Shown here one piece after another: positions 1 through 18,594 of a DNA stretch of 64,000 nt. The stretch is from Rhodobacteraceae bacterium LNNU 3342 (GTDB lineage Bacteria > Pseudomonadota > Alphaproteobacteria > Rhodobacterales > Rhodobacteraceae), in the NCBI GenBank assembly GCA_008711135.1, contig VUAW01000001.1:1-64000 (forward strand). The letters are read 5' to 3'. The translations under genes and the position numbers were made by a program. The notes beneath the pieces were generated by a model, which worked only from the letters and a program-made list of their open reading frames with translations, was not told the DNA's origin and ran no database searches. Numbering within the stretch: the first letter of the stretch is position 1; every line of letters begins with the position of its first letter.

Positions 1-104
1 GCCGCAGCCCTTCCTCCATGCAGGCCAGCACCGCCACATCGTCGCCCGCCTCGACAAAGATCACCCGGTCGGGCGGCAGGCCCGCCTGCTCCAGCCCCGG
101 CGCA
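1..104 (-). pseudogene. imuA-like 3' fragment, cut at the IS110 junction and by the window edge
   Basis: Read on the minus strand from about 104, one frame gives APGLEQAGLPPDRVIFVEAG followed by DDVAVLACMEEGLR and runs off the left edge. This resembles the middle of alphaproteobacterial ImuA, the RecA-like accessory protein of the ImuA-ImuB-DnaE2 mutagenic repair cassette (family knowledge recalled, not searched). The reading frame differs from that of the IS110 recombinase fragment joined to it at about 104/105. No ImuA N-terminal coding is seen to the right of the IS fragment, so the gene appears 5'-truncated rather than simply interrupted. The rest lies outside the window. Confidence 0.5.
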
Positions 105-237
105 ACCGTGCGAAGAACTCCGGGACCTGTCCGCGCCGCAACTTCTTGCGCAGCACCGCGTGTCCAGACGCATCCGCCCCATGCAGCTGAAACACGTTCT
201 TCGCCAGATCGAGTCCAACCATGATAATCTCCGACAT
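105..237 (-). pseudogene. IS110-family transposase (DEDD recombinase), N-terminal fragment
   Basis: The fragment begins at ATG 237, after a GGGAGGGAG ribosome-binding stretch, with MSEIIMVGLDLAKNVFQLHG and then ADASGHAVLRKKLRR. This is the characteristic N-terminus of IS110/IS1111 recombinases, and the Asp in GLDLAKN is the first acidic residue of the RuvC-like DEDD site. After about FFARL the homology stops and the frame runs into unrelated sequence, closing at 61. Full-length family members are about 300-400 aa, so this copy cannot be active. Confidence 0.75.
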
Positions 238-315
238 GACCGCTCCCTCCCGTGGATCGTCGCTGACCCACCTTAGCACAAAAGATGCCGTCGGGGGGGG
301 TCACACCATCAGAGC
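105..315 (-). mobile_element. IS110-family insertion sequence, left-end fragment
   Basis: This stretch holds the first about 45 codons of an IS110-type recombinase (start ATG at 237) plus about 75 bp of upstream non-coding DNA typical of the left end, including a run of eight G at 293-300. The element stops at about 105, where imuA-like sequence begins. The right end of the element and most of the recombinase are missing. In the IS110 group the left-end non-coding region carries the bridge RNA, so part of that locus may survive here. The outer boundary near 315 is approximate. Confidence 0.6.
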
Positions 316-360
316 CGGCCAAGATCGAAGCTGTCGCATGACTTCAGGCGGGTGAGGACC

Positions 361-1461
361 TTACTCACCATGTATTCGGCTTTGTGCAACATCGCCGGCT
401 GGAGCTGCCGCGCCGCCCGGGACGCCCGACACCTCCGCGCCTGCGAGATCTTCCCGGATGTCGTCGAGCAGCTTCTCGCGGTTGATCTCCATGGAGAACT
501 CGACCCGGCGGGACGCCTCGCGGTTCTCGCTCCCGTCCTCGTTCGTCACCAGACGGGCAGAGGAATAACCCGTGGACGAGAGGCGCCCGCGAGCCCAGTC
601 CAAGACCTCCGGATCATTCAGGCCCCTGAGGCAGACCTGCAACGCGTTCTGCGCGCGCCGCTGGGAAAGGTCGAGGTTGTAGAGATAGGCCTGCGAGGTA
701 TCCTGGCCCGGCTGTCCTTCCGAGGACGCATGCCCTTCGATCTTCAGTTCGGCGATATCGAGCTCGGAGGATTTCAATGTCCTGACCCAAGGTGCGCAGA
801 AGTCCCTCAGAAATGTCGGATTACTGATCTGGTCACTGCCGACATCGAAAAGGACGTTCTGGGGCAGGATGATCGTGCCGTCGGCGCGGATTGCGCCCCC
901 GGCTGCCCGGATGCTGTCGCCGAGCTCGCGGTTAAGCATGTCGACGAGTCCCTCCTCGGCCGCGGCCGCCTCGGCGAGGCGCTGGCTGGCGGAAGTGGCG
1001 GCCTCGTTGGGCCGCAGGAGGTCTTCGAGCGCCGCGCGCAGCCGGGTCTCCGGTGTAATCTCGACTGCCTCGCCAAGCTTCAGGAGCGTGCCCGGCGGCA
1101 GCTCCACGGCGCCATTCATCAACCTCTTCAGATCCTCCTCGCGCATGAAGCGGCTGTATCTTTCTGTATCCTCGATCGCCTTCTGGTCCTGAGTGCCGAG
1201 CCCCGCCGCGCGCAGGGCGCGCGCCATGTCGAAGGTCCCGTCGGTCAGCCCCGCCACGATCTCCGCCTTCTGCTCGTCGCTCATTGCGCCAAGGCTGTCA
1301 GCGAGACGCAGGCTGCGCTTCTCGGTATCGACCTGCCACCAGGTAAACAGCAGCAGGAGGATGAAGCTGAGCAGGATGAACACTTCTGCCACCGTGAGCC
1401 CCATGACCGCCCCGCGCTTGTAGTCGCGGCTCGATCCGGGTCCGGAATTGCGCATGGGCAT
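361..1461 (-). CDS. MotB/ZorB-like OmpA-domain stator subunit
   Basis: A 366-aa protein with a short cytoplasmic N-terminus, one TM helix (about 20-40, AEVFILLSFILLLLFTWWQ), a coiled-coil-rich linker (about 45-200) and a C-terminal OmpA/MotB peptidoglycan-binding domain (about 205-345). That domain carries IEGHASSEG, LSQRRAQNAL and a closing RRVEF. The layout is that of MotB, TolR-OmpA and ZorB proteins, which anchor an ion-driven stator to peptidoglycan. At the TM position where these proteins carry the ion-binding Asp, this protein has Glu26. It is the last gene of the four-gene operon, 102 bp after the MotA-like gene. The partner order MotA-MotB fits a stator pair. The assignment to Zorya proper is not supported, because the Zorya effectors are missing. 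Confidence 0.75.
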   Translation of the reverse strand: MPMRNSGPGSSRDYKRGAVMGLTVAEVFILLSFILLLLFTWWQVDTEKRSLRLADSLGAMSDEQKAEIVAGLTDGTFDMARALRAAGLGTQDQKAIEDTERYSRFMREEDLKRLMNGAVELPPGTLLKLGEAVEITPETRLRAALEDLLRPNEAATSASQRLAEAAAAEEGLVDMLNRELGDSIRAAGGAIRADGTIILPQNVLFDVGSDQISNPTFLRDFCAPWVRTLKSSELDIAELKIEGHASSEGQPGQDTSQAYLYNLDLSQRRAQNALQVCLRGLNDPEVLDWARGRLSSTGYSSARLVTNEDGSENREASRRVEFSMEINREKLLDDIREDLAGAEVSGVPGGAAAPAGDVAQSRIHGE

Positions 1462-1563
1462 TGCGAGGCACTCCAGTCGTTAAGGCGCCCATTCGCAGGG
1501 CGAAGGTATCCACCTACGGGATGGTCGGGTATGCGTTATCAGGACGGTCCTCGCGGGGCGGCA

Positions 1564-2823
1564 TTACCGGCGCCCGAGGCCGAAGAAACCGCTGCCGGTC
1601 GAGGGCGCGGTCTCCTCGACGCTCTCCGGTATCGGCGGCGTGGCGGCGGGCGGATCTGCAGGGGCCGAGACGACGGCCGGACGAGGTTGGTCGATGCGGC
1701 GCGCCAGGCGGTCGCCGGCCTCACCCACGCGCGCCGCGGCCGTATCGAAGCTCTGCCCGATCCGGTCGATCCCCTGATCCAGCGCAACCCCGGCGCGGGT
1801 CGTGGCATCCGCAAACCCTTGGGCGCCAGCCTCGAGGCGCGTGCGGGCGTTCTTCATGGCTCGTGTCATGTCGTTGGCGCCTTCGTTCACCTCGCGTGCG
1901 AAGGCCTCGGTCGCCTGGGTCGCTGCCTGCTGGGTCCGACCGACACCTACGATGATCTCGTCGGCGCCAGAGGAGAGCGCCGCGGCCGAGGTCATGAGGG
2001 TCTCGACGCTCTGGCGGATCCGCCCGGCAGCCTCGCTGTTGTGCGAGGCGATCTCGGTCGCAACCAAGGTCATCTCCGACATCGCAGTCCGGATGCTCCG
2101 CGCCGCGAGATCGCTCGACTCGTGCACGGCGGCGGTCACCATGGTGAGCGATGCCTGGGTCTGCAGGCGCACGCTCTCGCGCAATGCGGGGCCGAACTCC
2201 TCGGCCGACTTGAGGAGCTCCCCCTGCATGTCGGCAAGGAGCTTATCGAAGGCCTCGCGCATGCGGCCCTCCCGCTCGGCGCCCTGCTGCAGGCTCTCGA
2301 CGGAGAATGCCTTGATTTGGTCGAGGCTCATGCCGAGTTCGGTGCGGAAGCGGCGCGACGTCTCGTTCAGGTATTGCCGCTCCTGGCGCTCGCGGCTCTC
2401 CATGTCGACCTTGAACTGCAGCATGAGAACCCGCAGGAAGACGCCACCGATCGTCGAGGCAAGCGCCACGCCGAAGCCGGAGATGACCTCCGGGATGACG
2501 TCCGCGCGCTGCGAGGACGGAGCCTGGATGACGAAGTAGAGCGTCAGGGCCAGGGACGTCAGGGTGAAGAGGAACCCAAGATAGTAGCAGTTGTCCCCGA
2601 TCGTCTCCGCGTCGAGCTGCAGCTGGGTCGCCTTATAGGCGTAGAGTGCATAGGCTATCAGGACGACGATCGCCGAAATGGCGCCGGCGAGGGGGTTGAT
2701 CGGCATCAGCTTGAAGACGATGCAGCCTGCTGTTCCGGCTAGGAAGGCGATGATGAGCGGCATGGCCTCGGAGCGTGCGCTGCCATGCGTGCCGTAGATC
2801 CGTTTCGTGCGCCGTGCCATCAA
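1564..2823 (-). CDS. MotA/TolQ/ExbB (ZorA)-like membrane protein with long cytoplasmic helical tail
   Basis: A 419-aa protein with four predicted TM segments in the first about 150 residues. The last two, LGFLFTLTSLALTLYFV and ISGFGVALASTIGGVFLRVL, resemble the two conserved pore helices of MotA/TolQ/ExbB. The remaining about 230 residues are almost all helical and rich in Ala, Glu, Ser and Thr, a long tail of the kind seen in ZorA. The C-terminus is Pro-rich and ends GSGFFGLGRR. ATG at 2823 overlaps the stop of the VWA-like gene (ATGA), and the MotB-like gene follows, so translation is likely coupled. Function is inferred: the proton- or sodium-conducting half of a stator complex. A flagellar motor role is unlikely, as no flagellar gene is nearby. 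Confidence 0.7.
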   Translation of the reverse strand: MMARRTKRIYGTHGSARSEAMPLIIAFLAGTAGCIVFKLMPINPLAGAISAIVVLIAYALYAYKATQLQLDAETIGDNCYYLGFLFTLTSLALTLYFVIQAPSSQRADVIPEVISGFGVALASTIGGVFLRVLMLQFKVDMESRERQERQYLNETSRRFRTELGMSLDQIKAFSVESLQQGAEREGRMREAFDKLLADMQGELLKSAEEFGPALRESVRLQTQASLTMVTAAVHESSDLAARSIRTAMSEMTLVATEIASHNSEAAGRIRQSVETLMTSAAALSSGADEIIVGVGRTQQAATQATEAFAREVNEGANDMTRAMKNARTRLEAGAQGFADATTRAGVALDQGIDRIGQSFDTAAARVGEAGDRLARRIDQPRPAVVSAPADPPAATPPIPESVEETAPSTGSGFFGLGRR

Positions 2824-3671
2824 AGATCTCCTAGCCGTTCCACCGAAGGGATGTGGGCCCCTTGGCGTTCGAAGTATTTCATCCAGAAGTCGTCGAGCAC
2901 CGCCGGGTCCTTGACGCCCTCCGTCGGCCGCGGGACCTGGTAGATCTGCACTTCGGCTCCGTCGAGGGTCGTGCCGATCCGCTGATAATCCGGGGAGGAC
3001 CGGAAGCTCTCCCAGTCACCGCCGCGGTAGAAGCTGAGCACATCGCTGTGCTGCAGTAGGTCCGAAACCACCACGATGCGCCTGCCACCCTCGAAGGTCA
3101 CGAACCCCGCGCTGTCCGACACCAGGGCCTGAAGACTTTCCATGATCGGAGAGCGGTCGGCGCCCGAAGTGCTCACCATGCTCTCGAGACGCGTCTTCAG
3201 CGGATCCAGGAACCGCTCGCGGTAACGCGCATCAATCAGGCGGGCGTTCTGCGTCAGGGTGTTTGCTGACGAGGCATCCTGCGGCTTGCACAGGGGATCT
3301 GTCGCCCCCCAATTCACATGATCCTGACTGACCACGCCCATGGTGAACTGCGTGCCCCGCGGTGCCCGGTCGATCTCGTCCTCGAGCCAGGCCATCAGCT
3401 GGGAGTGCTGGGCGGGCGAGAGCGGGTCCGTCAGGTCCAGCAGGATCGCCGTCATCCCCACGGGCCCCGAGGGCGCAGGGCAAAGAGTTTGCGAATCGAC
3501 GGCATTGGCCGCGGCATCCTTGTTCGACCACCAGAACGCACCGCCGAGAGCCGCCACCACGGCCAAGGCGCCAAGAGCGAGAAGTGGCGTGGATGCACCC
3601 GATCCGCTCGATTTGCCACGGCCACGTGTGCTGCGGGAGGATCCTCTCCGGGATGTCTTGCCGCGGGCCAT
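2820..3671 (-). CDS. Membrane-anchored VWA-like periplasmic protein
   Basis: A 283-aa protein with a basic Ser/Arg/Gly-rich N-terminus (1-27), one TM helix (about 28-50) and an extracytoplasmic domain. The domain starts with TAILLDLTDPLSPAQ, has SPIMESLQALVSD in the middle and RRIVVVSDLLQHSD near the end. The order of an Asp-rich first strand, a Ser/Thr-Pro loop and a VSD strand is that of a von Willebrand A/Rossmann-like fold with an atypical metal site; this is inference from motif order. It overlaps the genes on both sides by 1-4 bp and so belongs to the same translated unit. I do not know a named family for it. It could be the load-bearing or sensing part of the stator complex. Confidence 0.6.
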   Translation of the reverse strand: MARGKTSRRGSSRSTRGRGKSSGSGASTPLLALGALAVVAALGGAFWWSNKDAAANAVDSQTLCPAPSGPVGMTAILLDLTDPLSPAQHSQLMAWLEDEIDRAPRGTQFTMGVVSQDHVNWGATDPLCKPQDASSANTLTQNARLIDARYRERFLDPLKTRLESMVSTSGADRSPIMESLQALVSDSAGFVTFEGGRRIVVVSDLLQHSDVLSFYRGGDWESFRSSPDYQRIGTTLDGAEVQIYQVPRPTEGVKDPAVLDDFWMKYFERQGAHIPSVERLGDL

Positions 3672-5104
3672 CAGGCGACCTCCTCGCCGCGCGGAGCGAT
3701 TGCTGCGGAACCCTGCTGGATCTCCTCGGGAAGCTTGAACTCGCCGATCGCCGTGCGGAAGCTCTCGAAGATCTCGCGGATTGCTATCTCCACGGCCTCG
3801 GTGACCTTCTCGGCTTCTGCCTCGGCGGCCTTGCGTCGACCATCGTCGGCGGGCACGGTGGTCTGGAATGCCGGGAAGGTGTGGCTGTATGCGAAGCTCG
3901 GCGGTGCTGGCTCCTTGCGCGCGGCGAGGTTGGCATCACGGTAGACGGCAAGGAGATGGGCCAACTTCGTGTCGCACTGGTCGAGGAAGCTGCGCAGGTG
4001 CGAGTTTAGCGTTGAATGCCCGTAAAGCGCGTCGATAGCCTGTGAGATGCCATCGCGCACCTGCTGATCGGCGTCGCGAAGATTCTCGATTGCGACCTCC
4101 CGCTTGTCCGTCAGCTCTTCGATGGCCTGATCGAAATGGTCCTGATGCTTCTCCCGGGCCAGCGTGAGGTCGCGCTCGACCTTGCTGTATCCTGGGAAAG
4201 GATCGAAGGTGTTCCAGCCCTTGAGGAAGGCAAAGATCGAGATGATCGTTCCGATTGCGAGGAGGAACCAGCTGTCCATGCTGGTGAGGCCGAACGGATC
4301 CGCCTGAAGCGCGGGAACGGCCATCTGCACCGCCTCGCCCCAGCCGACCTGCGCGTCGATGAGGTCGCGGAAATGCGCCACGGTCAAGTTGAGCGCGAGG
4401 GCGAAGGCGATCCAGACCAGAAGCGACAGGAAGCCGAACAGCTTGCGCATCAGGGTGCTGTGATTCATCCCGCAGCCGGCGATGCCGAGCATGAGGCTGC
4501 CGATCACGTTCACGGCCGAGAAGATAAGCGCTGTCAGGAGTCCCCCCACGAGGCCTCCCTCGTTTCCGCGCGAGAACATGACGGCGTTCAGGGCGGCCTC
4601 GACGCCGATGAAGATGATCGTCACCAGGGCGAACTTGAGCCAGCCCTCGAAGTGCTTCGCCGGCCGGCGCAGGTTGTGGCGCTCACGGAAGTCCTTGCGG
4701 TGCTGGAACGTCTCGAAGAGCCGCTCGGTCGACCCCGTCATGGCCGCCCTCCAGCCGCGAACCGCCGCCAGGTAATCGCTGGACGCGTTTCCGGCAACGA
4801 TCTCGACCTCCTTGCGCAAGGTGCCTGCGCGCGACAGACGCTCGTTATAGACTTGCCGGTTGTTCTCGTAGTTCTCGAGGCCGGCGCGGCGCAGCCCCTC
4901 GATCCGGGCGATGACCGCCGTCTCGATGTTGTCTGGTGTCGTCGCTTCCGGCGCCGGAAGGTCACGTTTGCCGCGCCGTTCACCCTCCCCGTCGAGATCG
5001 AGATCACGACGCAGCTTGTCTTGGTCGATCTCCGGGAACAAGGAAAGCGTCGGGAGGAGCTCGTCCGACTTCAGGAGGGACTTCAGCTTGTCGAGCATTG
5101 GCAT
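3671..5104 (-). CDS. Four-TM coiled-coil membrane protein of the stator-like operon, unknown function
   Basis: A 477-aa protein, first gene of the four-gene operon. ATG 5104 follows a good AAGGTGATCT ribosome-binding stretch. Residues 1-150 are charged and partly helical. TM helices are predicted at about 155-178, 184-210, 221-243 and 275-298, and a coiled coil follows at about 312-400. The C-terminal about 75 residues are Ala/Glu-rich. No enzymatic motif (Walker, nuclease, helicase) was seen. Its stop overlaps the start of the VWA-like gene by one base. I do not recognise the family. A structural or signalling component joining the membrane stator to the cytoplasm is the simplest reading. 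Confidence 0.6.
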   Translation of the reverse strand: MPMLDKLKSLLKSDELLPTLSLFPEIDQDKLRRDLDLDGEGERRGKRDLPAPEATTPDNIETAVIARIEGLRRAGLENYENNRQVYNERLSRAGTLRKEVEIVAGNASSDYLAAVRGWRAAMTGSTERLFETFQHRKDFRERHNLRRPAKHFEGWLKFALVTIIFIGVEAALNAVMFSRGNEGGLVGGLLTALIFSAVNVIGSLMLGIAGCGMNHSTLMRKLFGFLSLLVWIAFALALNLTVAHFRDLIDAQVGWGEAVQMAVPALQADPFGLTSMDSWFLLAIGTIISIFAFLKGWNTFDPFPGYSKVERDLTLAREKHQDHFDQAIEELTDKREVAIENLRDADQQVRDGISQAIDALYGHSTLNSHLRSFLDQCDTKLAHLLAVYRDANLAARKEPAPPSFAYSHTFPAFQTTVPADDGRRKAAEAEAEKVTEAVEIAIREIFESFRTAIGEFKLPEEIQQGSAAIAPRGEEVA

Positions 5105-5419
5105 AGATCACCTTGGTCACGAAAACGGGGTTTGTTCCCATACGGTCCGCGAGGACATCCTGCAGCAGGAATCCCGCGTCATGGTAGAAAAGTTGCCAGT
5201 TCCTTAAGGAGGTGTGGCTTAGCAGTCGCCTGCGCGTTTCAGTAGCGTGACTTAAGCGCGCTGGATGCACGTCGAATATTGGACCTCGGCTTGCGCAGGC
5301 GAGTATCGGACTCCATTACAACGTTTTGCGTTTTCATGCTGAGCCGCAGTAAAGCGTATTTCCGCCTGGAGCAGCCTCGATCACCTCCGATCCACGCGAT
5401 CATTGAGACCACCTGTGCA
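5105..5419. other. Intergenic region upstream of the stator-like operon
   Basis: About 315 bp between the operon start and the end of the DUF4236 gene, both on the minus strand. It should hold the operon promoter, but I see no convincing -35/-10 pair and no strong hairpin. A minus-strand open frame of 88 codons over 5004-5270 has no recognisable content and overlaps the operon gene, so I do not call it. Confidence 0.4.
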
Positions 5420-6583
5420 TCATGTCTCCTGCGTGATCAGTAGAGGTTCGGCGTGCTTCAGCTCCTTCGTAACGCGGCCGAGCTCCGTCACCGCGCCTCC
5501 GTAGGCGCCGCTGATCCCGTGCTTTGACACCTGCAGCAGCCCCTTGAAGCCGCCATCGCTGACCATGCCGATTTCTTCAAAGAGGCAGATCGGCAGCTGC
5601 CGGTTGTTCTTGAAGCGTCGGTCTGGGCCACCCTTCTTGTTTACGTATTTCCACGTCTGTCCGACCACCGTCGCATCTGACGGGGCGGACTCCATAATCA
5701 TGCGCTGATCGCGAACGGCGGTGCGAAGCGTTTCGTAACGAACCGCGCCGAAGCGCTTATTCTCCTCGATCAGGATGCAGTCCGGGAAGAAGTAGCACTT
5801 CTTTCCGTCGATCAGGATCATGGGCGGCGTCACGTTCGATGCGACGCCAGGCGGCAAGGCATAGGATACGGACGTCTCCTTCGTGTCGACAAGGCTTGTT
5901 GCGCCCGAGTTCTTCTTCCAGGCGTGGAGCGTCGTGATATCACCGCTCGCCTTCACGAACCAGAGCTTGCTGGATCCGGCGATCCGGTCGATGGCGCCGA
6001 CGAGCGCCTTGTATCGCTCTTCGGCCGTAGGCTCGAGGTTGTAGGCGAAGACGACGTTGCGCCGCGGGATGTCGAGCATTTCGCCTACCGCATAAGCGAT
6101 ACCCAACAGCACCACGAACGCCATAACCACGGCCGGGTTTTGCGAGATGAGCGAGAAGGCGAGACCCACGGCAGCCGCGCCGCACAGCATGAGCGTATAG
6201 GACGGCTTCTCACGCGCCTGGTTCAGGCTGTTCAGCGCTTCCGAGTGACTTTCCGAAACGAGAACGTCCGCCTCGGCGGAGATGATCCGGCGCATCAACA
6301 CACCGTCCTCGGTCATGTAAGTCGGCAGCTTCTCGTTCGGAGCGATCCGGGCGAGCTCCGACGAGTAATCCATCTGGTCTCCGCGACGCTGTTTCGGCTT
6401 CCGCCCGAGTCCGCCCAGCGTCTTCCGGTAATATACGCCGTTCATCCCGGCGTGGATGTAATGTCCTTTCGGGCCGGTCCCGATCCGGAACCCCTTAACG
6501 CCGGCAGAGAAGCCCGGGCCTGATTTCGAAAGGTTGATCCGGAACGGCCCGAGGGTCACGGAATCCCTGATGTAAAATGGCAT
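5420..6583 (-). CDS. DUF4236 domain membrane protein
   Basis: A 387-aa protein when started at ATG 6583 (MPFYIRDSVTLGPFRINLSK), which is exactly where DUF4236 proteins usually begin. An upstream ATG at 6619 would add 12 unrelated residues. The N-terminal about 55 residues carry the DUF4236 pattern (NLSKSGPGFSAGVKGFRIG, then GHYIHAG). Two hydrophobic segments follow (about 130-148 and 152-172), then a soluble C-terminal domain of about 200 residues. DUF4236 has no assigned biochemical role and is common in mobile and accessory regions. It shares its orientation with the stator-like operon but is 315 bp upstream, so co-transcription is uncertain. Confidence 0.75.
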   Translation of the reverse strand: MPFYIRDSVTLGPFRINLSKSGPGFSAGVKGFRIGTGPKGHYIHAGMNGVYYRKTLGGLGRKPKQRRGDQMDYSSELARIAPNEKLPTYMTEDGVLMRRIISAEADVLVSESHSEALNSLNQAREKPSYTLMLCGAAAVGLAFSLISQNPAVVMAFVVLLGIAYAVGEMLDIPRRNVVFAYNLEPTAEERYKALVGAIDRIAGSSKLWFVKASGDITTLHAWKKNSGATSLVDTKETSVSYALPPGVASNVTPPMILIDGKKCYFFPDCILIEENKRFGAVRYETLRTAVRDQRMIMESAPSDATVVGQTWKYVNKKGGPDRRFKNNRQLPICLFEEIGMVSDGGFKGLLQVSKHGISGAYGGAVTELGRVTKELKHAEPLLITQET

Positions 6584-6606
6584 CGTCGACCTATGAATGA
6601 ACGCTA

Positions 6607-6619
6607 GTGCAGGTTGCAC
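6607..6619. promoter_or_regulatory. Inverted repeat GTGCA-GGT-TGCAC upstream of DUF4236 gene
   Basis: A perfect 5-bp inverted repeat with a 3-bp spacer lies 24 bp upstream of the ATG at 6583. Size and place suit a repressor operator, but no candidate regulator is encoded nearby and a chance occurrence is possible. Confidence 0.25.
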
Positions 6620-6897
6620 AGGTTTTATTGGCCGCGCTAGATTTGATTCAGGTAAGTTGGCCAGTTCATGGATGAGGCGCCTGCCCGCCTAGGCCGTCGG
6701 GCCTGTGGCCGGAATGGCCGGCCCTCCCACGTCAGCTACGGCTGGCACGCCGGCAAGCGGCGAAGCAACTGGACCAAGACAGCCACTGTTGTATCACCGC
6801 AACATCAGCCCCTAAAGATGATGCGCGACCGTGCCAGAAACGGTGCTATCCTCGGTGCCAGAGATACCCGTAACCCGTTGAAATGTATAAAGGCCAC

Positions 6898-6925
6898 TGG
6901 GGTTCGAGTCCCTCCGGGCCTACCA
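6898..6925 (+). repeat. tRNA 3'-end remnant (T arm, acceptor 3' strand, CCA): probable att site
   Basis: The sequence reads as a T arm (loop TTCGAGT inside an imperfect GGGG/CCCT stem), then the acceptor 3' strand CGGGCCT, discriminator A and CCA. No D arm, anticodon arm or 5' acceptor strand precedes it. Tyrosine integrases commonly recombine within tRNA 3' ends and leave such a copy at one edge of an integrated element. The intact tRNA gene and the integrase are not in this window, so the element would extend past the left edge, or the remnant is a relic. Confidence 0.55.
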
Positions 6926-7121
6926 CGTTCCATATCCTTATCTGCTTGTGCTTGCCCGGCTCAGCGCCGGCCACATGCTGCTGGAGTTTCGTGCGATAAG
7001 TTCCCTTAGGGACGCTGTCGCCAGTCGTAGAAGTTATTGCAAGCGCAGCTAGTGAAAACCGGCCCCGCGATCTTTCGTGGGCTGGCCGAACCAGCTTCAT
7101 GAAGCAGATGCAACTGGTAAT

Positions 7122-7158
7122 GTATCTATTGACGAATTGCCCTACAAGTTGCTACGAA
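7122..7158 (+). promoter_or_regulatory. Probable promoter of the sugar-acid dehydratase operon
   Basis: TTGACG at 7129-7134 and TACGAA at 7153-7158 are spaced 18 bp, a plausible sigma70 promoter 43 bp before the start codon. The 12-mer TATCTATTGACG (7123-7134) recurs exactly upstream of kdgD on the opposite strand, which suggests a shared promoter or operator in the regulon of the FadR-type regulator at 17636. Confidence 0.45.
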
Positions 7159-7201
7159 GTGTCCAACAAATCCTTATCCAGTCGCCCACCCGAGAGGCAG
7201 C

Positions 7202-8350
7202 ATGATCATTACTGATGTAGAAGTCAGGGTCTTCCTGACGACGACGCGGCGCCATTCTGACAGCGCCGGGCACGCCCATCCAGGGCCCGCGCATCAGGTT
7301 GAACAGGCCATGCTGACGATCCGGACAGAAGATGGGAACGAAGGTCATTCCTTCACCGCGCCAGAAATCGTGCGGCCTCATGTCATCGACAAGTTCGTCA
7401 AGAAAGTCCTCATCGGGCAGGATCACCGCGATCGCGAACGGCTGTGGCATGACCTTGCCCACTGGCAGCGCGGATCGGCAGCCCAGCTGACGGATCGGAC
7501 GCTTGCCGTGGTGGACTGTGCCCTATGGGATCTGGCTGGACGTAGCCTGAACCAGCCGGTTTACAAGCTGATCGGGGGCTACCGCGACAAGGTTCTGGCC
7601 TATGGCAGCATCATGTGCGGTGATGAAATGGAAGGCGGGCTGGCAACGCCCGAGGATTATGGGCGCTTTGCCGAAACGCTGGTCAAACGCGGCTACAAGG
7701 GCATCAAGCTCCACACCTGGATGCCGCCTGTCAGTTGGGCGCCGGACGTCCGCATGGACATCAAGGCCTGTGCCGCAGTGCGAGAGGCCGTAGGTCCGGA
7801 CATCAGCCTGATGATCGACGCCTTCCACTGGTATTCCCGAACCGAGGCGCTGGAACTTGGGCGCGGCCTTGAGAAGCTCGGCTTCGACTGGATCGAGGAA
7901 CCGATGGATGAGCAGTCGATGTCATCCTACAAGTGGCTTGCCGACAACCTCGACATTCCGGTGGTGGGGCCTGAAAGCGCGGCGGGGAAGCATTGGCACC
8001 GCGCCGAATGGGTCAAGCACGGTGCTTGCGACATTCTGCGGACCGGGGTCAACGATGTGGGCGGCATCACCCCTGCCCTCAAGACCCTGCGCATGGCCGA
8101 ATCCTTTGGCATGATGTGCGAGGTTCACGGCAACACGGCCATGAACCTGCATGTCGTCGCGGCGTCTAAAAACTGCCGCTGGTACGAAAGGGGGCTGCTG
8201 CACCCCTTCCTCGAATACGACGACGGTCACGACTACCTGAAATCCCTGTCCGACCCTATGGATGCTGATGGCTATGTCCACGTGCCCGATCGCCCCGGCC
8301 TGGGAGAGGACATCGACTTCGACTTCATCGAGAACAACCGCGTTAGGTAG
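7202..8350 (+). CDS. Enolase-superfamily (mandelate racemase group) sugar-acid dehydratase
   Basis: A 382-aa protein with the mandelate-racemase/enolase layout: an N-terminal capping domain (about 1-130) and a TIM barrel. Visible site residues are the K-x-H pair Lys169/His171 (IKLHTW), metal ligands Asp206 (MIDAF), Glu232 (WIEEP) and Glu258 (GPES), and His309 (EVHG). Members of this kind dehydrate aldonic or aldaric acids to 2-keto-3-deoxy acids. The same locus encodes KdgD, which consumes 5-dehydro-4-deoxyglucarate, so the substrate is probably a C6 aldarate such as galactarate or glucarate; that is inference. It heads a plus-strand operon with the SGNH hydrolase and the solute-binding protein. 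Confidence 0.8.
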   Translation: MIITDVEVRVFLTTTRRHSDSAGHAHPGPAHQVEQAMLTIRTEDGNEGHSFTAPEIVRPHVIDKFVKKVLIGQDHRDRERLWHDLAHWQRGSAAQLTDRTLAVVDCALWDLAGRSLNQPVYKLIGGYRDKVLAYGSIMCGDEMEGGLATPEDYGRFAETLVKRGYKGIKLHTWMPPVSWAPDVRMDIKACAAVREAVGPDISLMIDAFHWYSRTEALELGRGLEKLGFDWIEEPMDEQSMSSYKWLADNLDIPVVGPESAAGKHWHRAEWVKHGACDILRTGVNDVGGITPALKTLRMAESFGMMCEVHGNTAMNLHVVAASKNCRWYERGLLHPFLEYDDGHDYLKSLSDPMDADGYVHVPDRPGLGEDIDFDFIENNRVR

Positions 8351-8365
8351 GTGGAGGAAGGCGGG

Positions 8366-9007
8366 ATGAAACAGATACTCGCCTTCGGGGACAGCCTGAC
8401 ATGGGGCGCCGACCCGGTAACCGGGTTGCGCCACCCCTACGACACGCAATGGCCGGTCGTGCTGGAGGCGGGTCTTGCGGGACTGGCGCGGGTTCACGCG
8501 GACGGCTTGGGTGGACGCACAACCTGCCGTGACGACCATTCGGGCCCCGCCTGCCGGAACGGGGTTCGGGCGCTGACCGTGGCGCTTGCCGCCCATATGC
8601 CCCTTGATCTGGTCATCCTGATGCTGGGGACCAATGACCTGAAGCCCGTACACGGGGGCATGGCAATTTCTGCTCAGGCAGGGATGCGCCGCTTGGCCGA
8701 AATCGTGATCACCTTCCCGCACAAACCCCGCAGCGCCGTGCCGCAGCTTCTGATCGTGGCCCCGCCGCCCTGCGCGCGCGGACCCGACGGCGCACCCGCC
8801 GGGGGACGCTCAATCGATCAGTCGCGGCTGCTTGCGCCGCTTTACGAAAGCCTTGCGAAAGAACTGGGCTGCAGCTTCCTTGATGCCAGAACGGTGGCCA
8901 CTGCCGATCCTGCCGATGGCGTTCATCTGGATGCAGAAAATACCGCTGCCATCGGTGATGCCCTTGTCGCGCCTGTCAAAAGCCTTCTGGCAGGCGCTTC
9001 TTCGTGA
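8366..9007 (+). CDS. SGNH/GDSL-family hydrolase (esterase)
   Basis: A 213-aa protein with SGNH block I GDSLTWG (nucleophile Ser near residue 10), block III GTND and a C-terminal DGVHLD holding the catalytic Asp-x-x-His. It is close to TesA/arylesterase-type lipases without a signal peptide. I chose ATG 8366 because GGAGGAAGG lies just upstream; the GTG at 8351 would place that Shine-Dalgarno inside the gene. It follows the dehydratase by 15 bp. In this locus it may remove acyl groups from sugar-acid substrates, which is inference. Confidence 0.8.
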   Translation: MKQILAFGDSLTWGADPVTGLRHPYDTQWPVVLEAGLAGLARVHADGLGGRTTCRDDHSGPACRNGVRALTVALAAHMPLDLVILMLGTNDLKPVHGGMAISAQAGMRRLAEIVITFPHKPRSAVPQLLIVAPPPCARGPDGAPAGGRSIDQSRLLAPLYESLAKELGCSFLDARTVATADPADGVHLDAENTAAIGDALVAPVKSLLAGASS

Positions 9008-9070
9008 AAACGGCCTCAAGGCCGCAAAGGCGTGCCGCTCGCCCATAATGCGGCAAACATGGGAGGAAAC

Positions 9071-10663
9071 ATGAAACACTTTCTGCTCTCGGCCGCGCTT
9101 GGGGCGCTTTGCCTTGGGGCGGCCCCGGTCTGGGCCGAAACCCCGGCGAACCAGCTCATCGTTGCGACCACGATGAACAACATCCTGACGCTTGACCCCG
9201 CCGCAATCACTGGGCGCGACACGGTCCAGGTGCTCAATAACATCTATGACACGCTGATCGTCCAGTCGCCTGATGACCGGTCGATCCAGCCGCGAATGGC
9301 CGAAAGCTGGGAGGTGGCTGAGGACCGGATGTCGATCCGCTTCACCCTGCGCGAAGGGGCGACCTTTGCCTCAGGCAACCCGGTCACCGCACAGGATGTT
9401 GCATGGAGCCTGACGCGCCTGATGCAGCTGAACCAGGCGCAGTCCTCGTTCCTGAAATCCCGTGGATTCAGCCTGGAGGAGGCCGACAAGCATTTCGTGG
9501 CCGAGGATGAGCGCACGTTTGTCATCAACCTGCCGCAGCCGGACGACCCGCAGTTGCTGATGATGGTGCTGGGGCAAAACGGGCCGGGCTCGATCCTTGA
9601 CCGTGAAACCGTGATGGCCAATGAACGCGATGGCGACATGGGCGCGGCGTGGCTGACGCTCAACTCCGCCGGATCGGGTCCTTACACGCTGACGCAGTGG
9701 TCCTCGAACGACTTCATCATCCTGACGCGGAACGAAGGGTACTGGGGCGCTGCCCCGGAAATGGCGCGCGTGCTGATGCGTCACCTGCCGGAATCGCAGA
9801 CCCAGCGGCTGATGCTGGAACGCGGCGACATCGACGTGGCCTACACGATGCAGGCGCCTGACCTTGCCGCGCTGGAAGGACACGACGACATCACGCTGGA
9901 GTCCGTGCCCGGGTCCGGCTTCTATTACCTTGCCATGTCGCTGAAGGATGAACGTTTCACCAACAAGAAGGTGCGCGAGGCGCTGCGGCTGCTGATCGAC
10001 TATGAAGGCATCAACAGCGCGATCATGCGCTATTACGGCCAGCCGCATCAGCGCCCTCTGTCCTCGGGCGTCATCGGGGAACTGCCCGATCCGGGTTACA
10101 CGCTCGATGTCGAGGCCGCAAAGGCCCTGCTGGCCGAGGCCGGCTATCCCGACGGGTTCAACGTCAGCCTGCGCGTTCTGTCCGAAGCCCCCTTTGCCAA
10201 CGCGGCGACCGCCATCCAGAACACCTTGGCGCAGGCGGGCATCAACGCCGAAATCATCAGTGGGTCGGGCGACCAGATCTATGGCGCGATGCGCGAACGC
10301 AACTTTGAGCTTCTGGTGGGCCGGGGCGGCGGCGGCCAGCACCCCCACCCCGACAGCAACCTGCGCGCACTCGCCTACAACCCCGACAACAGCGACGAGG
10401 CGCGGCTGACCAACTACCAAGGCTGGCGCACCAGCTTCTATGATCCGCAGTTGAACGAGATGATCGAAACTGCGCTGCTGGAGCGGGATTCCGAACAACA
10501 GGTCGCCCTGTACCAAGAAATCCAGACCTACATGGACGAGATCGTGATGCCGATCCTGCCATTTTCCGAAGTGGTCGATACCGCCGCCTATCGGTCGGAC
10601 GTGGAAGGCATCATCGTCAGCCCCTGGGTTTCCCGGTTCGAGGAAGTGACGAAGAACCGCTAA
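9071..10663 (+). CDS. ABC transporter substrate-binding protein, family 5 (DppA/OppA type)
   Basis: A 530-aa periplasmic binding protein. ATG 9071 follows a strong GGGAGGAAAC site and opens a signal peptide (MKHFLLSAALGALCLGAAPVWA) with likely cleavage after residue 22. The mature protein has the family-5 layout: LTLDPA near the N-terminus, WEVAEDRMSIRFTLREGATF, and a long C-terminal lobe ending near residue 525. Family-5 proteins bind peptides but also nickel, opines and oligosaccharides. The matching permeases and ATPases are encoded convergently at 10784-14304, and the neighbouring enzymes point to a carbohydrate or sugar-acid ligand rather than peptides. Confidence 0.88.
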   Translation: MKHFLLSAALGALCLGAAPVWAETPANQLIVATTMNNILTLDPAAITGRDTVQVLNNIYDTLIVQSPDDRSIQPRMAESWEVAEDRMSIRFTLREGATFASGNPVTAQDVAWSLTRLMQLNQAQSSFLKSRGFSLEEADKHFVAEDERTFVINLPQPDDPQLLMMVLGQNGPGSILDRETVMANERDGDMGAAWLTLNSAGSGPYTLTQWSSNDFIILTRNEGYWGAAPEMARVLMRHLPESQTQRLMLERGDIDVAYTMQAPDLAALEGHDDITLESVPGSGFYYLAMSLKDERFTNKKVREALRLLIDYEGINSAIMRYYGQPHQRPLSSGVIGELPDPGYTLDVEAAKALLAEAGYPDGFNVSLRVLSEAPFANAATAIQNTLAQAGINAEIISGSGDQIYGAMRERNFELLVGRGGGGQHPHPDSNLRALAYNPDNSDEARLTNYQGWRTSFYDPQLNEMIETALLERDSEQQVALYQEIQTYMDEIVMPILPFSEVVDTAAYRSDVEGIIVSPWVSRFEEVTKNR

Positions 10664-10684
10664 ACGCACGGCGCTGAACAGATG

Positions 10685-10714
10685 ACGGGCGCATCCACAG
10701 ATGCGCCCGTTTTT
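10685..10714 (+). terminator. Rho-independent terminator after the substrate-binding protein gene
   Basis: A perfect 10-bp stem (ACGGGCGCAT / ATGCGCCCGT) with a 6-nt loop is followed by a short T run, 21 bp after the stop codon. It sits between two convergent operons. Confidence 0.85.
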
Positions 10715-10783
10715 CATTGGCCATGAAGACCGGCAAAAGAAAAGGCCGCGCAATCTGCGCGGCCCCTTGCGAAGATGGAAAAT

Positions 10784-11545
10784 TCAGAGCTGGCCTTCGT
10801 ATTCCAGCGACGCTGCGATTAGTTCCCGCGCATAGGGATGGGTGGCGCCGTTACCGGGAATGGCCGCACGAGGCAGCACCTCGGTCACCTCTCCGTGCAG
10901 CATGACGGCAAAGCGGTCACACATGTGGTCCACCACCGCCAGATCATGCGTGACCATGATATAGGTAAAGCCGCGCTCCTCACGCAGGCGGTTCAGCAGG
11001 TTCAGGATCTCTGCCTGCACCGAAACATCCAGTGCCGAAGTCGGCTCGTCCAGCAGCAGAAGCGAGGGTTCAAGGATCAGCGCACGCGCGATTGCCACGC
11101 GCTGCCGCTGCCCGCCCGAAAGCTGGTGGGGGAAGCGGTCAAGGAAGCTGACGGGCAGCCCCACGTCGGTCAGTGCCCTGTTCATGCGGGCCTCATGGTT
11201 GTCCATGCCGTGGATGCGTAGCGGCTCTGCCAGAACCGTCCTAACCGATTGACGCGGATGCAGCGACCCATAGGGGTCCTGGAACACCATCTGCATCAGG
11301 CGGCAGCGTTCCTTGAGCGGGATGTCCCGCACGTTCCGGCCGCCGATCCGCACCTCCCCGGTCCAGATGTCGGTCAGCAGCGACATGCAGCGCAGGACCG
11401 TGGACTTGCCCGATCCGCTTTCGCCTACCAGCCCGAAACATTCCCCCGCCGCGACGGAAAAGGACACCCCCGGCAAGACGCGAACCGCGCTGAGCCCCTG
11501 CCCGAAGGTGATGGCGAGATCGCGGATCTCCACGGAAACCGTCAT
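10784..11545 (-). CDS. Dpp/Opp-type ABC transporter ATP-binding protein (DppF-like)
   Basis: A 253-aa ATPase with Walker [10 protein letters not shown] (about 41-49), signature LSGGQRQRVAIARA and Walker [13 protein letters not shown]. The start at 11545 overlaps the stop of the DppD-like gene (ATGA); the frame extends 7 codons upstream, but that would lie inside the previous gene. It is the last gene of the minus-strand operon. It forms the second nucleotide-binding subunit of the importer whose binding protein is encoded at 9071-10663. At 253 aa it is shorter than many DppF proteins (about 320 aa), lacking a long C-terminal extension. Confidence 0.88.
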   Translation of the reverse strand: MTVSVEIRDLAITFGQGLSAVRVLPGVSFSVAAGECFGLVGESGSGKSTVLRCMSLLTDIWTGEVRIGGRNVRDIPLKERCRLMQMVFQDPYGSLHPRQSVRTVLAEPLRIHGMDNHEARMNRALTDVGLPVSFLDRFPHQLSGGQRQRVAIARALILEPSLLLLDEPTSALDVSVQAEILNLLNRLREERGFTYIMVTHDLAVVDHMCDRFAVMLHGEVTEVLPRAAIPGNGATHPYARELIAASLEYEGQL

Positions 11546-12381
11546 TGGGTGAACTCCTCGGTCCATTCAGGGCGACGGTCCAGCACTGCCAGTGGCGCCC
11601 GGGGACCGCCGATGCGCGGCTGCGCGGCAAGCAGGCCGCGGGTATAGGGATGCGTCGCCTGGTCGAGATCCCGCGCCGCGATGGTTTCCACCACCCTGCC
11701 CCCGTACATGATCAGCACCCGGTCGCAGAAATTGCGCACGAGGTTCAGGTCATGGCTGATCATGATCAGCCCGATGCCCCGGTCGCGCACCAGCCCGTCC
11801 AGGATGTTCAGCACCTGAAGCCGCACCGTCACGTCCAGCGCCGAGGTTGGTTCATCTGCGATCACCAGGTCGGGATCGGCAAGTAGCATCATCGCGATCA
11901 TCACCCGCTGCCCCATCCCGCCCGAGATTTCGTGCGGATAAAGGTCATGGACCCGTTCGGGATCCCGGATGCGGACAGCGGCCAGCATCTCCAGCGTCTT
12001 GGCCTTGGCCTCTGCGCGCGACACGGGGAAGTGCCGCAGGTAGGCCTCGGCCACCTGATGACCCACGCGCCGGATCGGGTTCAGGCTGAACTTCGGGTCC
12101 TGCAGGATCATCGACATGCGCCGGCCCCGCAGTTTCAGCATCTGCGCTTCTGACAGGGCCGTCAGGTCCGTTCCTTCGAACCGCATTATGTCCGCGCTGA
12201 CCTTGGCCGAAGGCAACAGCCGCAGAATCGCCCGGCCTACCGTGGATTTTCCCGAACCGCTTTCGCCCACGATGCCCAGCCGTTCACGCCCAAGGGTGAA
12301 TGACACCCCACGTACGGCATCGGCAGGCGCGCCATTGTAGCGGATGGACAGGTTCTTCACCTCAAGGATTGGTTGTTCCAT
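11542..12381 (-). CDS. Dpp/Opp-type ABC transporter ATP-binding protein (DppD-like)
   Basis: A 279-aa ATPase with Walker [10 protein letters not shown] (about 38-46), a Q-loop at ILQDP, the signature [12 protein letters not shown] and Walker [13 protein letters not shown]. The Met-Gly in the signature in place of the usual Gly-Gln is a small departure from the consensus. It pairs with the DppF-like ATPase and overlaps it by 4 bp, and it follows the DppC-like permease by 4 bp, all in one operon. Confidence 0.88.
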
Positions 12382-12385
12382 GCCC

Positions 12386-13285
12386 TCACCTCCGGTTCAT
12401 CTGTTTCGGGTCGAGCGCGTCGCGCAGCCCGTCGCCCAGCAGGTTGAAGGCGAGGCTGACGGACAGGATGGCGATGCCTGGGAAGGTCACCAGCCACCAG
12501 CTGTCGATCATGTAGCGGCGGCCCGTGGCGATCATCGCGCCCCATTCGGGCATGGGCGGCTGTGCGCCAAGGCCAAGGAAACCAAGTCCCGCCGCCGTCA
12601 GGATGACGGTCGCCATGTTCAGCGTCAGCCGGATCATGACGGACGGCAGGCACATCGGCATGATGGACTTGACGATGATCCGCATGGGCGAGGCTCCCTG
12701 AAGCCGCGCTGCGGCGATATAGTCGGCCTTGCGAAAGGTCATCGTCTCGGCCCGCGCCAGGCGCGCAATCGGAGGCCAGGCGGTCAGCGCGATGGCGATG
12801 ATGGCGTTGTTCAGGCTGGGCCCCAGCGCCGCCACGAAGGCCAGCGCAAGGATCAGCGACGGGAACGACAGGAAGATGTCGGTGATCCGCATCATCAACG
12901 TATCGAAGCGCCCGCCGAAATAGCCCGACGTCGTGCCCACGATCAGCCCGATCGGCCCCACCACGATCGACACGAGGAAGATAATCGTCAGGGTGATCCG
13001 CGACCCCCAGACCAGCCGGCTGAAGATGTCGCGCCCCAGTTCATCCGTACCGAAAAGGTGCCCGTTCCCCGGCGGCTGAAGGACATTGGTGAGGTTTTGC
13101 GCGTAGGGGCTGTAGGGTGCGATGAGCGGCGCAAAAACCGCCGTCGCCACAAGTACGGCCACCACGATCAACCCAAAAGCCGAGGGCGGGGACCGCATCA
13201 GGAACACAGCGATGTTGCGCACGGCCCGAAGCGAGGACGGCATACGCGAAACGGGGGCTGGCATGTCGATGTCCTTGGCGGTCAT
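12386..13285 (-). CDS. Dpp/Opp-type ABC transporter permease (DppC-like)
   Basis: A 299-aa membrane protein, start ATG 13285 (MTAKDIDMP) overlapping the stop of the DppB-like gene. It has one N-terminal TM helix (about 35-57), then the DppC hallmark HLFGTDELGRDIFSR before five further TM helices. The cytoplasmic coupling loop ARLQGASPMRIIVKSIMP contains the EAA-type motif, with Gln in place of Glu-Ala. Together with the DppB-like permease it forms the import channel. Confidence 0.88.
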   Translation of the reverse strand: MTAKDIDMPAPVSRMPSSLRAVRNIAVFLMRSPPSAFGLIVVAVLVATAVFAPLIAPYSPYAQNLTNVLQPPGNGHLFGTDELGRDIFSRLVWGSRITLTIIFLVSIVVGPIGLIVGTTSGYFGGRFDTLMMRITDIFLSFPSLILALAFVAALGPSLNNAIIAIALTAWPPIARLARAETMTFRKADYIAAARLQGASPMRIIVKSIMPMCLPSVMIRLTLNMATVILTAAGLGFLGLGAQPPMPEWGAMIATGRRYMIDSWWLVTFPGIAILSVSLAFNLLGDGLRDALDPKQMNRR

Positions 13286-14304
13286 TTTGTCCTCGGGTCG
13301 AACAAGCGATAAAGAACGTCGGACAGAAGGTTCAGCCCGATGAAGATGACGCCAACGATCAGCACGCAGGTCATCACCGCGTTCATGTCGCCAATGATCA
13401 GGTTGCTGGTCAGGTACTGGCCAAAGCCGGGCCATGCAAAGACCGTCTCGATCAGGACCGCGCCTTCCAGCAGGCTGCCATAGGCAAGCGCCACAATCGT
13501 CACCAGCTGCACGCGGATGTTGATGAATGCGTGGCGCCAGATCGTCTGCCGGCGTGACAGGCCCTTGACCCGCGCGGTGGTCATGTATTCCTGGCTCAGC
13601 TGATCCAGCATGAAGCTGCGCGTCATCCGGGTGATATAGGCGGAGGACGAATATCCAAGGAGCGAGGCCGGAAGGATCAGGTGGTTGAGCGCGGACCAGA
13701 ACACCTCTGGCTGGCCGGCAAGCAGGCTGTCAATCAGCAGGAAGCCGGTGCGGGACGGAACCATGCCGATGTAGAACTGGCTCATCCGGCCCGATCCGCC
13801 CACCCAGCCCAGATGCGCGTAAAAGACGATGAGCGCGATCATCCCGGTCCAGAAGATCGGCATCGAGTGGCCGAACAGGCTGAAGACCCGCACAAGATGG
13901 TCCTGCCAGCGATCCTTGTTGACCGCCGCAGCGATGCCAAGGGGGATGCCCAGGCCGGCCCCGATCAGGATGGCAAAGGTCGCAAGTTCGATAGTGGCTG
14001 GCATGACATGTATGATGTCTTCAATGACCGGGCGGCCGGTACGGATGGAATGTCCGAAGTTGCCGGTGAACACATCGCCGAGGTAGTGCAGGAACTGTTG
14101 CCACACCGGCCGGTCAAGCCCGAGATCGCGAACCGCCTGCTCATAAACCTCGCGCGAGGCATCCTCGCCCACCATGGCACGGGCGGGATCTGCCGGCATG
14201 AACCGGCCGATGGCGAAGGTCAGCACCAGAAGCCCAACCAGTGTTGCAGCGATGCTGCCAAGGTGGCTGGACAGGGACCAGACCCGGATCCTGTTTTTCA
14301 GCAT
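13282..14304 (-). CDS. Dpp/Opp-type ABC transporter permease (DppB-like)
   Basis: A 340-aa membrane protein with six predicted TM helices. The start ATG 14304 (MLKNRIRV) follows a GGAAGGGGGG stretch; the reading frame extends upstream to 14376 without support. The N-terminal helix is followed by a periplasmic loop with DPARAMVGEDAS and DLGLDRPVWQQFLHYLGDV, typical of DppB/OppB. The coupling loop near residues 225-245 reads YMTTARVKGLSRRQTIW. It lies 108 bp downstream of the alpha/beta hydrolase gene and may have its own promoter there. Confidence 0.88.
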   Translation of the reverse strand: MLKNRIRVWSLSSHLGSIAATLVGLLVLTFAIGRFMPADPARAMVGEDASREVYEQAVRDLGLDRPVWQQFLHYLGDVFTGNFGHSIRTGRPVIEDIIHVMPATIELATFAILIGAGLGIPLGIAAAVNKDRWQDHLVRVFSLFGHSMPIFWTGMIALIVFYAHLGWVGGSGRMSQFYIGMVPSRTGFLLIDSLLAGQPEVFWSALNHLILPASLLGYSSSAYITRMTRSFMLDQLSQEYMTTARVKGLSRRQTIWRHAFINIRVQLVTIVALAYGSLLEGAVLIETVFAWPGFGQYLTSNLIIGDMNAVMTCVLIVGVIFIGLNLLSDVLYRLFDPRTK

Positions 14305-14412
14305 ATTCCCCCCCTTCCCTGCCTGATGCAGAGGCTCACGCCCAAACATGTATGACAGGTTAGAATAAGTTGTCACGCAGACAGCGACCTGTCAAGCACG
14401 CCGTTCCGCCGC

Positions 14413-15471: not shown

Positions 15472-15478
15472 CGCCCTG

Positions 15479-16465
<987 letters not shown>

Positions 16466-16662
16466 ATACAAGTGATATGATGAATTTGATTCCGCTCCCG
16501 GTTCAGGCGATTTGGCTATGTTTTGGACACGAAAACGCAATACACCTAGTCTCTCACTAATGATAGAAGATGCCGTCGCCGTAACTAGTACGACGACTTG
16601 ACACATCAACGCCGATATGGTCTGACAAGATGATCTGCAATGCTCACATCAGGGGCTGGACC

Positions 16663-17578: not shown

Positions 17579-17635
17579 GGTGTTCAAACATGCCCGGCGC
17601 CGCAATATATTGACCACAGTTACAAGAGGATGGCC

Positions 17636-18376: not shown

Positions 18377-18594
18377 TCGAGGGAGAGGAGGCGTCATCCC
18401 GCGACTGCCCTCTCCTACCCGAGCGGGCGCCTGCGCGGCACCCAGCCACGGCCGCAGGTGGCCGGGCTGAAGGGGCCCATGTTGACAGGATAGGAATGCA
18501 AAGCGGCGCGTAGCGTGTGCTGCCGCGACATAGGAGATCCCTGCTGGCGCTCAGCTAACACCCTCATTGGGATGCTTCCTCAAAACACCATAGC

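Follow-up and report, generated by a model that had tools for sequence, protein, structure and literature searches.

A gene of Rhodobacteraceae bacterium LNNU 3342 encodes a protein with a predicted von Willebrand A (VWA) fold, and its operon belongs to a group in which a Zorya-like motor is repeatedly fused to, or encoded beside, a staphylococcal-type nuclease (SNase). The gene occupies positions 2820-3671 of the 64,000-nucleotide stretch analysed here (contig VUAW01000001.1; hereafter the window) and lies in a four-gene operon with the order TM1, VWA, ZorA-like, ZorB-like. Related loci are cited by our labels (L036 and the like). The fusion or adjacency of an SNase and the motor is new here; among the literature matches listed, from a search that left subscription papers and most preprints outside, none describes an SNase partner or a VWA partner of a ZorAB-type motor. 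With slightly less than even confidence, we read the operon as encoding a Zorya-related, ion-driven envelope machine that would destroy DNA crossing the periplasm.

The VWA-like gene product is predicted to be a divergent VWA-fold protein

The initial annotation had suggested a VWA fold from the motifs DLTDPL (D79-L84), SPIMESLQ (from S174) and VVVSDLLQHSD (S203-D204) in the open reading frame (ORF), and structure prediction and comparison bear this out. The AlphaFold2 model was built on the 35-row alignment A4, whose 34 rows other than the window had been retrieved with the pattern SPIME; conservation of SPIME is thus built into it. It has a predicted local distance difference test score (pLDDT) of 87.1 and a predicted template modelling score of 0.79, and shows a membrane helix (residues 28-55) followed by a domain of alternating strands and helices. 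In a Foldseek comparison 19 PDB chains matched with an E value of at most 0.001, the lowest being 3.6e-5. Judged by title, nearly all of these are VWA-domain chains, including integrin I domains, anthrax-toxin receptors (ANTXR), Ku, TFIIH, ITIH1, complement factor B, an ArnB paralogue and TRAP; one title (9c4f) is uninformative. VIA-align scores reach Z 12.2 (8s05_A, root-mean-square deviation 3.4 Å, 156 residues aligned), followed by 12.1 (6fpz_A) and 11.7 (4fx5); 451 of the 997 chains score Z 8 or higher, and Sec23/24 is also among the top matches. The comparison did not turn up a fold unrelated to VWA or Rossmann folds, the outcome that would have spoken against the initial reading. Curated sequence models miss the protein: scans of the window protein with Pfam, NCBIfam and PADLOC matched no VWA model, none is among the best 25 of 33 Pfam families for the rows of A4, and the A4 profile gave a single chance-level match to PDB sequences (E 0.27). 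The VWA assignment therefore rests on the predicted fold, which outweighs the miss at the sequence level.

Residues 1-29 contain eight Lys/Arg and no Asp/Glu and precede one hydrophobic helix. By the positive-inside rule the N-terminus would lie inside and the VWA domain outside. The predicted arrangement is accordingly an inner-membrane anchor that holds the VWA domain in the periplasm, in agreement with the outer-side tether first proposed.

Conserved residues suggest a variant metal site in the VWA domain

To follow the metal site we used a 20-row alignment consisting of the window protein and 19 homologues from a whole-protein search with no motif selection (the weakest homologue, L035, excluded), with residue counts read by eye. 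All 20 rows carry the signature D-x-[ST]-D ... [ST] ... D. D79, T/S81, D82 and D204 are kept in every row, and position 174 is Ser in 19 rows and Thr in L033. The candidate ligands of the unusual metal site suggested in the initial annotation are conserved among homologues. In A1, a 16-row subset without L025, L029, L033, L034 and L035 (truncated, near-copy or weakest), D79, D82, S174, P175 and D204 are invariant; P175 is missing in L034, outside A1. A4 agrees on the metal-site residues, with D204 in 35 of 35 rows.

The canonical metal ion-dependent adhesion site (MIDAS) has the form DxSxS...T...D, spread over three loops. In the AlphaFold2 model D79 follows directly after strand 1 (72-78), S174 precedes helix 176-186 and D204 follows strand 196-203, and with this layout the three residues would correspond to the three MIDAS loops. 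The hydroxyl residue of loop 2 and the Asp of loop 3 are as in canonical sites. Loop 1 departs from them: D79 and [ST]81 are present, position 83, where the second Ser of DxSxS would stand, is Pro in 26 of the 35 A4 rows and there is an extra Asp, D82. The DxSxS motif of the canonical site is given in PMC2875224. We propose a variant MIDAS-like metal site on the basis of the model, at which the protein would bind metal. Distant VWA relatives from other classes (L094-L099, 6 rows) show D-Q-T, Ser/Thr in loop 2 and S-D-M, with D82 absent. Two conserved cysteines, Cys64 and Cys128, possibly pair in a disulfide.

The operon combines TM1 and VWA with motor subunits related to those of Zorya

The TM1 stop and VWA start, like the VWA stop and the ZorA-like ATG at 2820, overlap by one base (TGATG), which makes translational coupling of the VWA gene to a stator, as initially noted, a fair reading of the gene anatomy. 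Across 53 loci, with the closest in-frame start used in each case, TM1 and VWA overlap by 1 base in 22 and by 4 bases in 9.

PADLOC assigns ZorA2 as the best model of the ZorA-like subunit (1.5e-7) and ZorB2 as that of the ZorB-like subunit (3.4e-28). The membrane core of ZorA-like proteins is kept in 47 rows (D77-N78, Y80-Y81, T87-L88, S90, G118, S123-T124, G127, R131) and is presumably of the MotA/TolQ kind; the ZorA-like profile matched ZorA entries of the PDB weakly, amid coiled-coil noise. For the ZorB-like profile the best PDB match is 8vvi_A (1.7e-30), which from its annotation we take to be type II ZorB, with flagellar stator proteins at 5e-14 or weaker. Both subunits nevertheless score far below the NCBIfam cut-offs (ZorB2: 60.9 bits vs a cut-off of 400). 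In eight loci (L024, L026, L032, L061, L064, L068, L070, L071) the ZorB-like protein does not align to the OmpA domain, and Pfam finds no OmpA match in that of L024 (L024:10507-11400). These eight proteins all keep the GLTxAE helix and share another C-terminal region with Cys-Arg-[Phe/Tyr] (8/8).

Zorya consists of a ZorAB motor with ZorC/D, ZorE or ZorF/G, and requires an Asp in the ZorB helix (D24/D21), according to PMC11890865. The present operon resembles it in its MotA/TolQ-type subunit with a long tail, in its single-transmembrane (TM), peptidoglycan-binding OmpA subunit and in the closest profile and PDB matches. It differs in adding TM1 and VWA, in showing no ZorC-G among the window ORFs scanned and the neighbour families listed, and in its predicted periplasmic nuclease. 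A further apparent difference is Glu where Zorya's ZorB has the essential Asp: Glu26, the only acidic residue of helix 18-40, is Glu in 44 of 44 rows, its register relative to ZorB being tentative.

TM1 has 16 invariant positions in a 33-row alignment and an AlphaFold2 pLDDT of 86.9, and nothing in the PDB matches it with an E value of 0.001 or below. We rejected TM1 as a hidden MotA/TolQ on this result and on an hhalign probability of 2.7% against the ZorA-like protein. Against the TM protein of L094-type operons hhalign aligned 51 columns at a weak probability of 19%.

The initial annotation had also regarded a VWA protein gating or loading a stator as a role without precedent in MotAB, TolQR or Zorya. 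This stands in part: PMC12204202 already proposes a VWA partner of TolQ-type motors, namely vWA 'force transducers' of two families that are tethered in the membrane and accompany TolQ(R)-like motors, whereas the hallmarks here differ. In both cases a motor gene of the 5:2 type lies next to the gene of a periplasmic vWA protein with a membrane tether; the differences are the ZorB-like partner and the nuclease link. The SHLS motif and His of the TolA-like transducers are absent from the window VWA helix, and helix 28-55 has no invariant residue in A4. The conserved Asp in the vWA TM helix that marks transpore-helix transducers is likewise absent in A4, and that type goes without a TolR/MotB-like partner, whereas a ZorB-like gene is present here.

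The operon is patchily distributed and partly plasmid-borne

Of 54 distinct places, 44 have all four operon genes; before removal of the five repeats L055=L023, L056=L022, L060=L025, L062=L024 and L065=L026 the count, with the window, was 48 of 59 entries. Of the ten incomplete places, four end near a contig end (L025, L066, L067, L073), five have TM1 and VWA only (L030, L031, L033, L034, L072) and in L035 no operon gene was matched. As 38 loci come from a SPIME motif scan, this count describes relatives of this VWA protein and not VWA proteins generally. The same gene order occurs on annotated plasmids of Paracoccus yeei, P. aminovorans, Microvirga, Rhizobium and Sinorhizobium. Operon or VWA homologues were found in 15 of 385 genomes of the class, including the window's own and one doubtful match (G359), in 17 of 398 genomes of a phylum sample, 6 of which belong to other classes and match along just a part of the domain, and in 24 of 72,556 plasmid records.

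SNase genes recur within and beside the operon

Clustering of 592 neighbour ORFs returned SNase as the leading recurrent family (12 loci within 3.5 kb), the second and last cluster to reach three loci being ABC-type ATPases. PF00565 coordinates fell inside long ZorB-like ORFs: the SNase is fused to the ZorB-like C-terminus in 14 of 53 rows and is a separate gene within 2 kb in another 12. PF00565 matches exceed the cut-off in the fusions of L036 (1.7e-15) and L027 (3.4e-13) and in the separate gene of L058 (2.6e-13). Pfam places OmpA and SNase in one protein in L036; in L027 the OmpA match is below cut-off. Fourteen further loci added separate SNase genes in L100, L104 and L105, with L103 repeating L057. 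As background we took 24 genomes, together about 105 Mb, with 55 SNase genes counting those of the operons (both totals summed by hand); this gives about 0.5 per Mb or 0.005 per 10 kb. Near 53 operons about 0.3 SNase genes are expected and 26 are observed, far above background.

The pattern DGDT...R...GIDAPE...R, which includes catalytic positions, is kept in most SNase rows and broken in L050. A hydrophobic stretch lies within the first 75 residues of all 12 separate SNases checked, and both fused and separate SNases are predicted to lie outside the inner membrane.

A probably exported SNase beside a periplasmic motor would also suit DNA handling at the envelope for another end: the two might serve to process DNA from outside the cell or to import it, as food or for transformation. 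Neighbour clustering found no DNA-uptake genes recurring beside the operon within 3.5 kb, where ABC-type ATPases are the only family besides SNase to reach three loci, and we consider DNA acquisition very improbable. Alternatively, the operon may be a Zorya-like system that kills in the cytoplasm, with the periplasmic SNase an accessory and the VWA protein a mere assembly factor. That the closest models are ZorA2 and ZorB2 and that 25 of 53 rows are without SNase speaks for it. PADLOC finds no ZorC-G among 6 window ORFs, none appears in the best 25 of 77 families for the neighbours (150 of 232 proteins, down to 2.9e-15), and SNase is the sole recurring neighbour effector; we consider cytoplasmic killing improbable.

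Nuclease state switches often among relatives

We mapped the nuclease state onto a TM1 tree made by a quick method (48 rows, 47 distinct, L103 being identical to L057 in TM1). L043, a near-copy of L016, was left out, as were L023, L025, L030, L031, L033, L034, L066, L072, L073, L101, L106 and L107, for want of a ZorA match or of complete genes. Fused, separate and absent states need 14 changes on this tree, and the fused state alone needs 9, at least 8 of them on well-supported branches. SNase labels are still more clustered than in most shuffles. The nearest neighbours L037 (separate) and L041 (fused) differ, and the window, without an SNase, groups with L036, which has the fusion. The nuclease state thus switches often, through repeated gain, loss and fusion.

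Window positions 418-5220 match L036 at 80.8%, and this homology ends 57 bases before the end of the window ZorB-like gene. Window positions 1-103, part of an imuA-like fragment, match L036 beyond the opposite side of its operon. The same imuA-like neighbour in different arrangements indicates that the region was rearranged, and the simplest reading is that the SNase domain was lost from the window by rearrangement; the window starts where its contig does. A single SNase is encoded elsewhere in the window genome (L091, 209 amino acids, N-terminal hydrophobic helix). It lies on another contig, beside what we take to be a GGDEF-type gene, and is not assignable to the operon.

A possible envelope machine acting on incoming DNA

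If the subunits assemble as in ZorAB, five ZorA-like and two ZorB-like chains would form an inner-membrane motor, and the ZorB-like OmpA domain would grip peptidoglycan. The VWA domain, on its own helix anchor and probably paired with TM1, would serve as a periplasmic docking or sensing part and may bind a partner through its MIDAS-like metal site. At about half of the loci a periplasmic SNase would do the actual work, fused to the ZorB-like arm or separate with an export-like N-terminus, and the machine would most likely cut foreign DNA (injected phage genomes, perhaps conjugating plasmids) during its passage through the periplasm. The nuclease-less window copy might borrow a nuclease in trans or be impaired. 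A Zorya-type motor, a peptidoglycan grip, a probably exported nuclease and patchy, partly plasmid-borne operons fit a barrier to incoming DNA. The analysis shows the predicted fold, the operon, the conserved motifs and the fused or adjacent nuclease; we infer a defence role and VWA gating, along with motor assembly, topology, metal binding and the DNA target.

A bolder form, possible though doubtful in our estimation, is a new class of envelope immunity in which a proton- or sodium-driven rotary motor, triggered by way of a VWA sensor that binds metal, would swing or position a periplasmic nuclease arm on peptidoglycan and shred phage or plasmid DNA ahead of its arrival in the cytoplasm. In such a class Zorya's cytoplasmic effector logic might be turned inside out, a thought that we advance with similar reserve. 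If true, a periplasmic arm would be added to bacterial immunity, and 5:2 ion-driven motors would gain a new job, the conversion of membrane energy into DNA destruction outside the cytoplasm. VWA would be placed in a motor complex, with metal, ion and nuclease sites separable in one plaque assay, and the relatives in which the nuclease was gained, lost or fused would supply natural variants for such testing.

The DNA-destroying machine has a conceptual relative in SNIPE, whose nuclease is of the GIY-YIG type. PMC13190303 describes SNIPE as a nuclease in the membrane that cleaves phage DNA as it is injected. Common to the two is the principle that entering DNA is cut at the inner membrane; the domains are unrelated (SNIPE has DUF4041) and SNIPE is without a motor. 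We rejected an FtsZl1 membrane-remodelling system, taking FtsZl1 as PF13809: FtsZl1/Tubulin_2 was found in 0 of 16 genomes or records (control matches 3 of 14). FtsZl1-vWA-OmpA operons (PMC2875224) resemble the present one in combining genes for vWA, OmpA and membrane proteins. PMC12505986 and PMC7159879 were also used for comparison.

TM1 and VWA also occur as motorless pairs at L030:8209-10598, L034:8845-11310 and L101:7231-9620. Going by names read from sequence, the L030 pair presumably adjoins tat/serS/surE-like genes and the L034 pair an ileS-like gene. Such pairs are possibly the core form of the module. More distantly, the other-class VWA relatives L094-L099 align to this VWA protein with an hhalign probability of 97.6%, and in 6 of 6 a TM protein of approximately 520-550 amino acids directly precedes a VWA relative with a signal-like N-terminus. 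The module may have its root in envelope work and have been joined later to motor and nuclease.

Several observations weigh against a DNA-destroying machine. No SNase was found in or near the operon in 25 of 53 rows, some cut by contig ends, and the window's own operon is among them; L032 and L044 have an SNase fragment or weak match only. Among the 12 separate-SNase loci, L072 has just TM1 and VWA and lacks the motor genes, and the L050 SNase is without catalytic positions. No homologue was found among 50,697 phage records, and none was confirmed in viral contigs. The other ZorAB chain listed, 8qyd_F, matches the ZorB-like profile at 3.4e-9, below flagellar stator proteins, so that kinship with Zorya is loose overall and lies with one branch only. 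A defence island around the operon is not counted as support, its excess over control being weak. Finally, the L030 and L034 pairs, without ZorA/B and beside core-type genes, resemble envelope upkeep more than immunity, and in L094 an OmpA lipoprotein (Pfam) precedes the TM protein and VWA relative, with L095 and L096 reading alike.

These last relatives favour envelope maintenance or force transduction, as in Tol-Pal or the proposed vWA force transducers, in which VWA and OmpA would link inner membrane, peptidoglycan and outer membrane, with removal of DNA by the nuclease as a side task. The proposal of vWA transducers beside TolQ motors in PMC12204202 points the same way. The patchy, partly plasmid-borne spread argues against it, and repeated nuclease gain and loss would be unexpected of a pure tether; we regard this explanation as unlikely.

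Feature coordinates and genomic neighbourhood

Table 1. Coordinates of operon genes and other features in the window.
Feature	Position	Strand	Basis or description
TM1, operon gene 1	3671..5104	-	477 amino acids; 4 predicted TM helices flanked by long coiled coils (hydropathy, alignment)
VWA protein, operon gene 2	2820..3671	-	283 amino acids; ATG start
N-terminal membrane helix of VWA protein, residues 28-55 (predicted)	3507..3590	-	AlphaFold2 secondary structure; hydropathy peak 30-48
Candidate metal-site loop 1, D79-L-T-D-P83 (D-x-[ST]-D)	3423..3437	-	alignment conservation
Candidate metal-site loop 2, S174-P175	3147..3152	-	alignment conservation
Candidate metal-site loop 3, S203-D204	3060..3065	-	alignment conservation
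Cys64 of VWA protein	3480..3482	-	kept 16/16 in A1, 35/35 in A4; missing in L034
Cys128 of VWA protein	3288..3290	-	kept 16/16 in A1, 35/35 in A4; missing in L034
ZorA-like (MotA/TolQ/ExbB-type) subunit with long tail	1564..2820	-	ATG at 2820; ORF list start 2823
ZorB-like subunit	361..1461	-	one TM helix and OmpA/peptidoglycan-binding domain, no SNase domain (PADLOC, Pfam)
OmpA domain of ZorB-like subunit, residues 204-317	511..852	-	PF00691, 5.9e-7
Glu26 of ZorB-like TM helix	1384..1386	-	sole acidic residue, positions 18-40
ImuA-like fragment	2..322		NCBIfam ImuA, E 0.069, weak; cut by contig start

We compared 150 neighbour proteins with 135 control proteins from 20 hand-picked regions, using the best 25 of 77 families for the neighbours and all 16 for the control, with families divided into labels by hand. 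Eight labels are absent from the control (MTase_II, STK_OB, AbiEii, HNH, GajB, RTasHel, mad2, PycTIR), some of them perhaps representing one protein; five are found in the control only (BrxL, IetA, phospholipase effector, TRIP13, ZorB3); and mad3, mad8 and AriA match in both.

ArdC-type anti-restriction genes lie within about 5 kb of plasmid-borne operons (L019:18306-19439, L021:7474-8439). In the S. fredii operon the SNase gene adjoins a gene for a protein with DUF4041 and T5orf172 (L020:16428-18011), a make-up that we take to be that of SNIPE-type phage defence. A genomic island beside a tRNA was considered for the window and rejected: an ORF near 6900 resembles a tRNA shadow, but ARAGORN finds no tRNA in 1-20000. 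Upstream of the window operon, on the same strand, lies a gene for a DUF4236 protein (5420-6619; PF14020, 1.3e-13), which is not a recurring neighbour. Farther away, ORFs at 27538-28889 presumably encode protocatechuate 3,4-dioxygenase subunits of an aromatic-degradation cluster.

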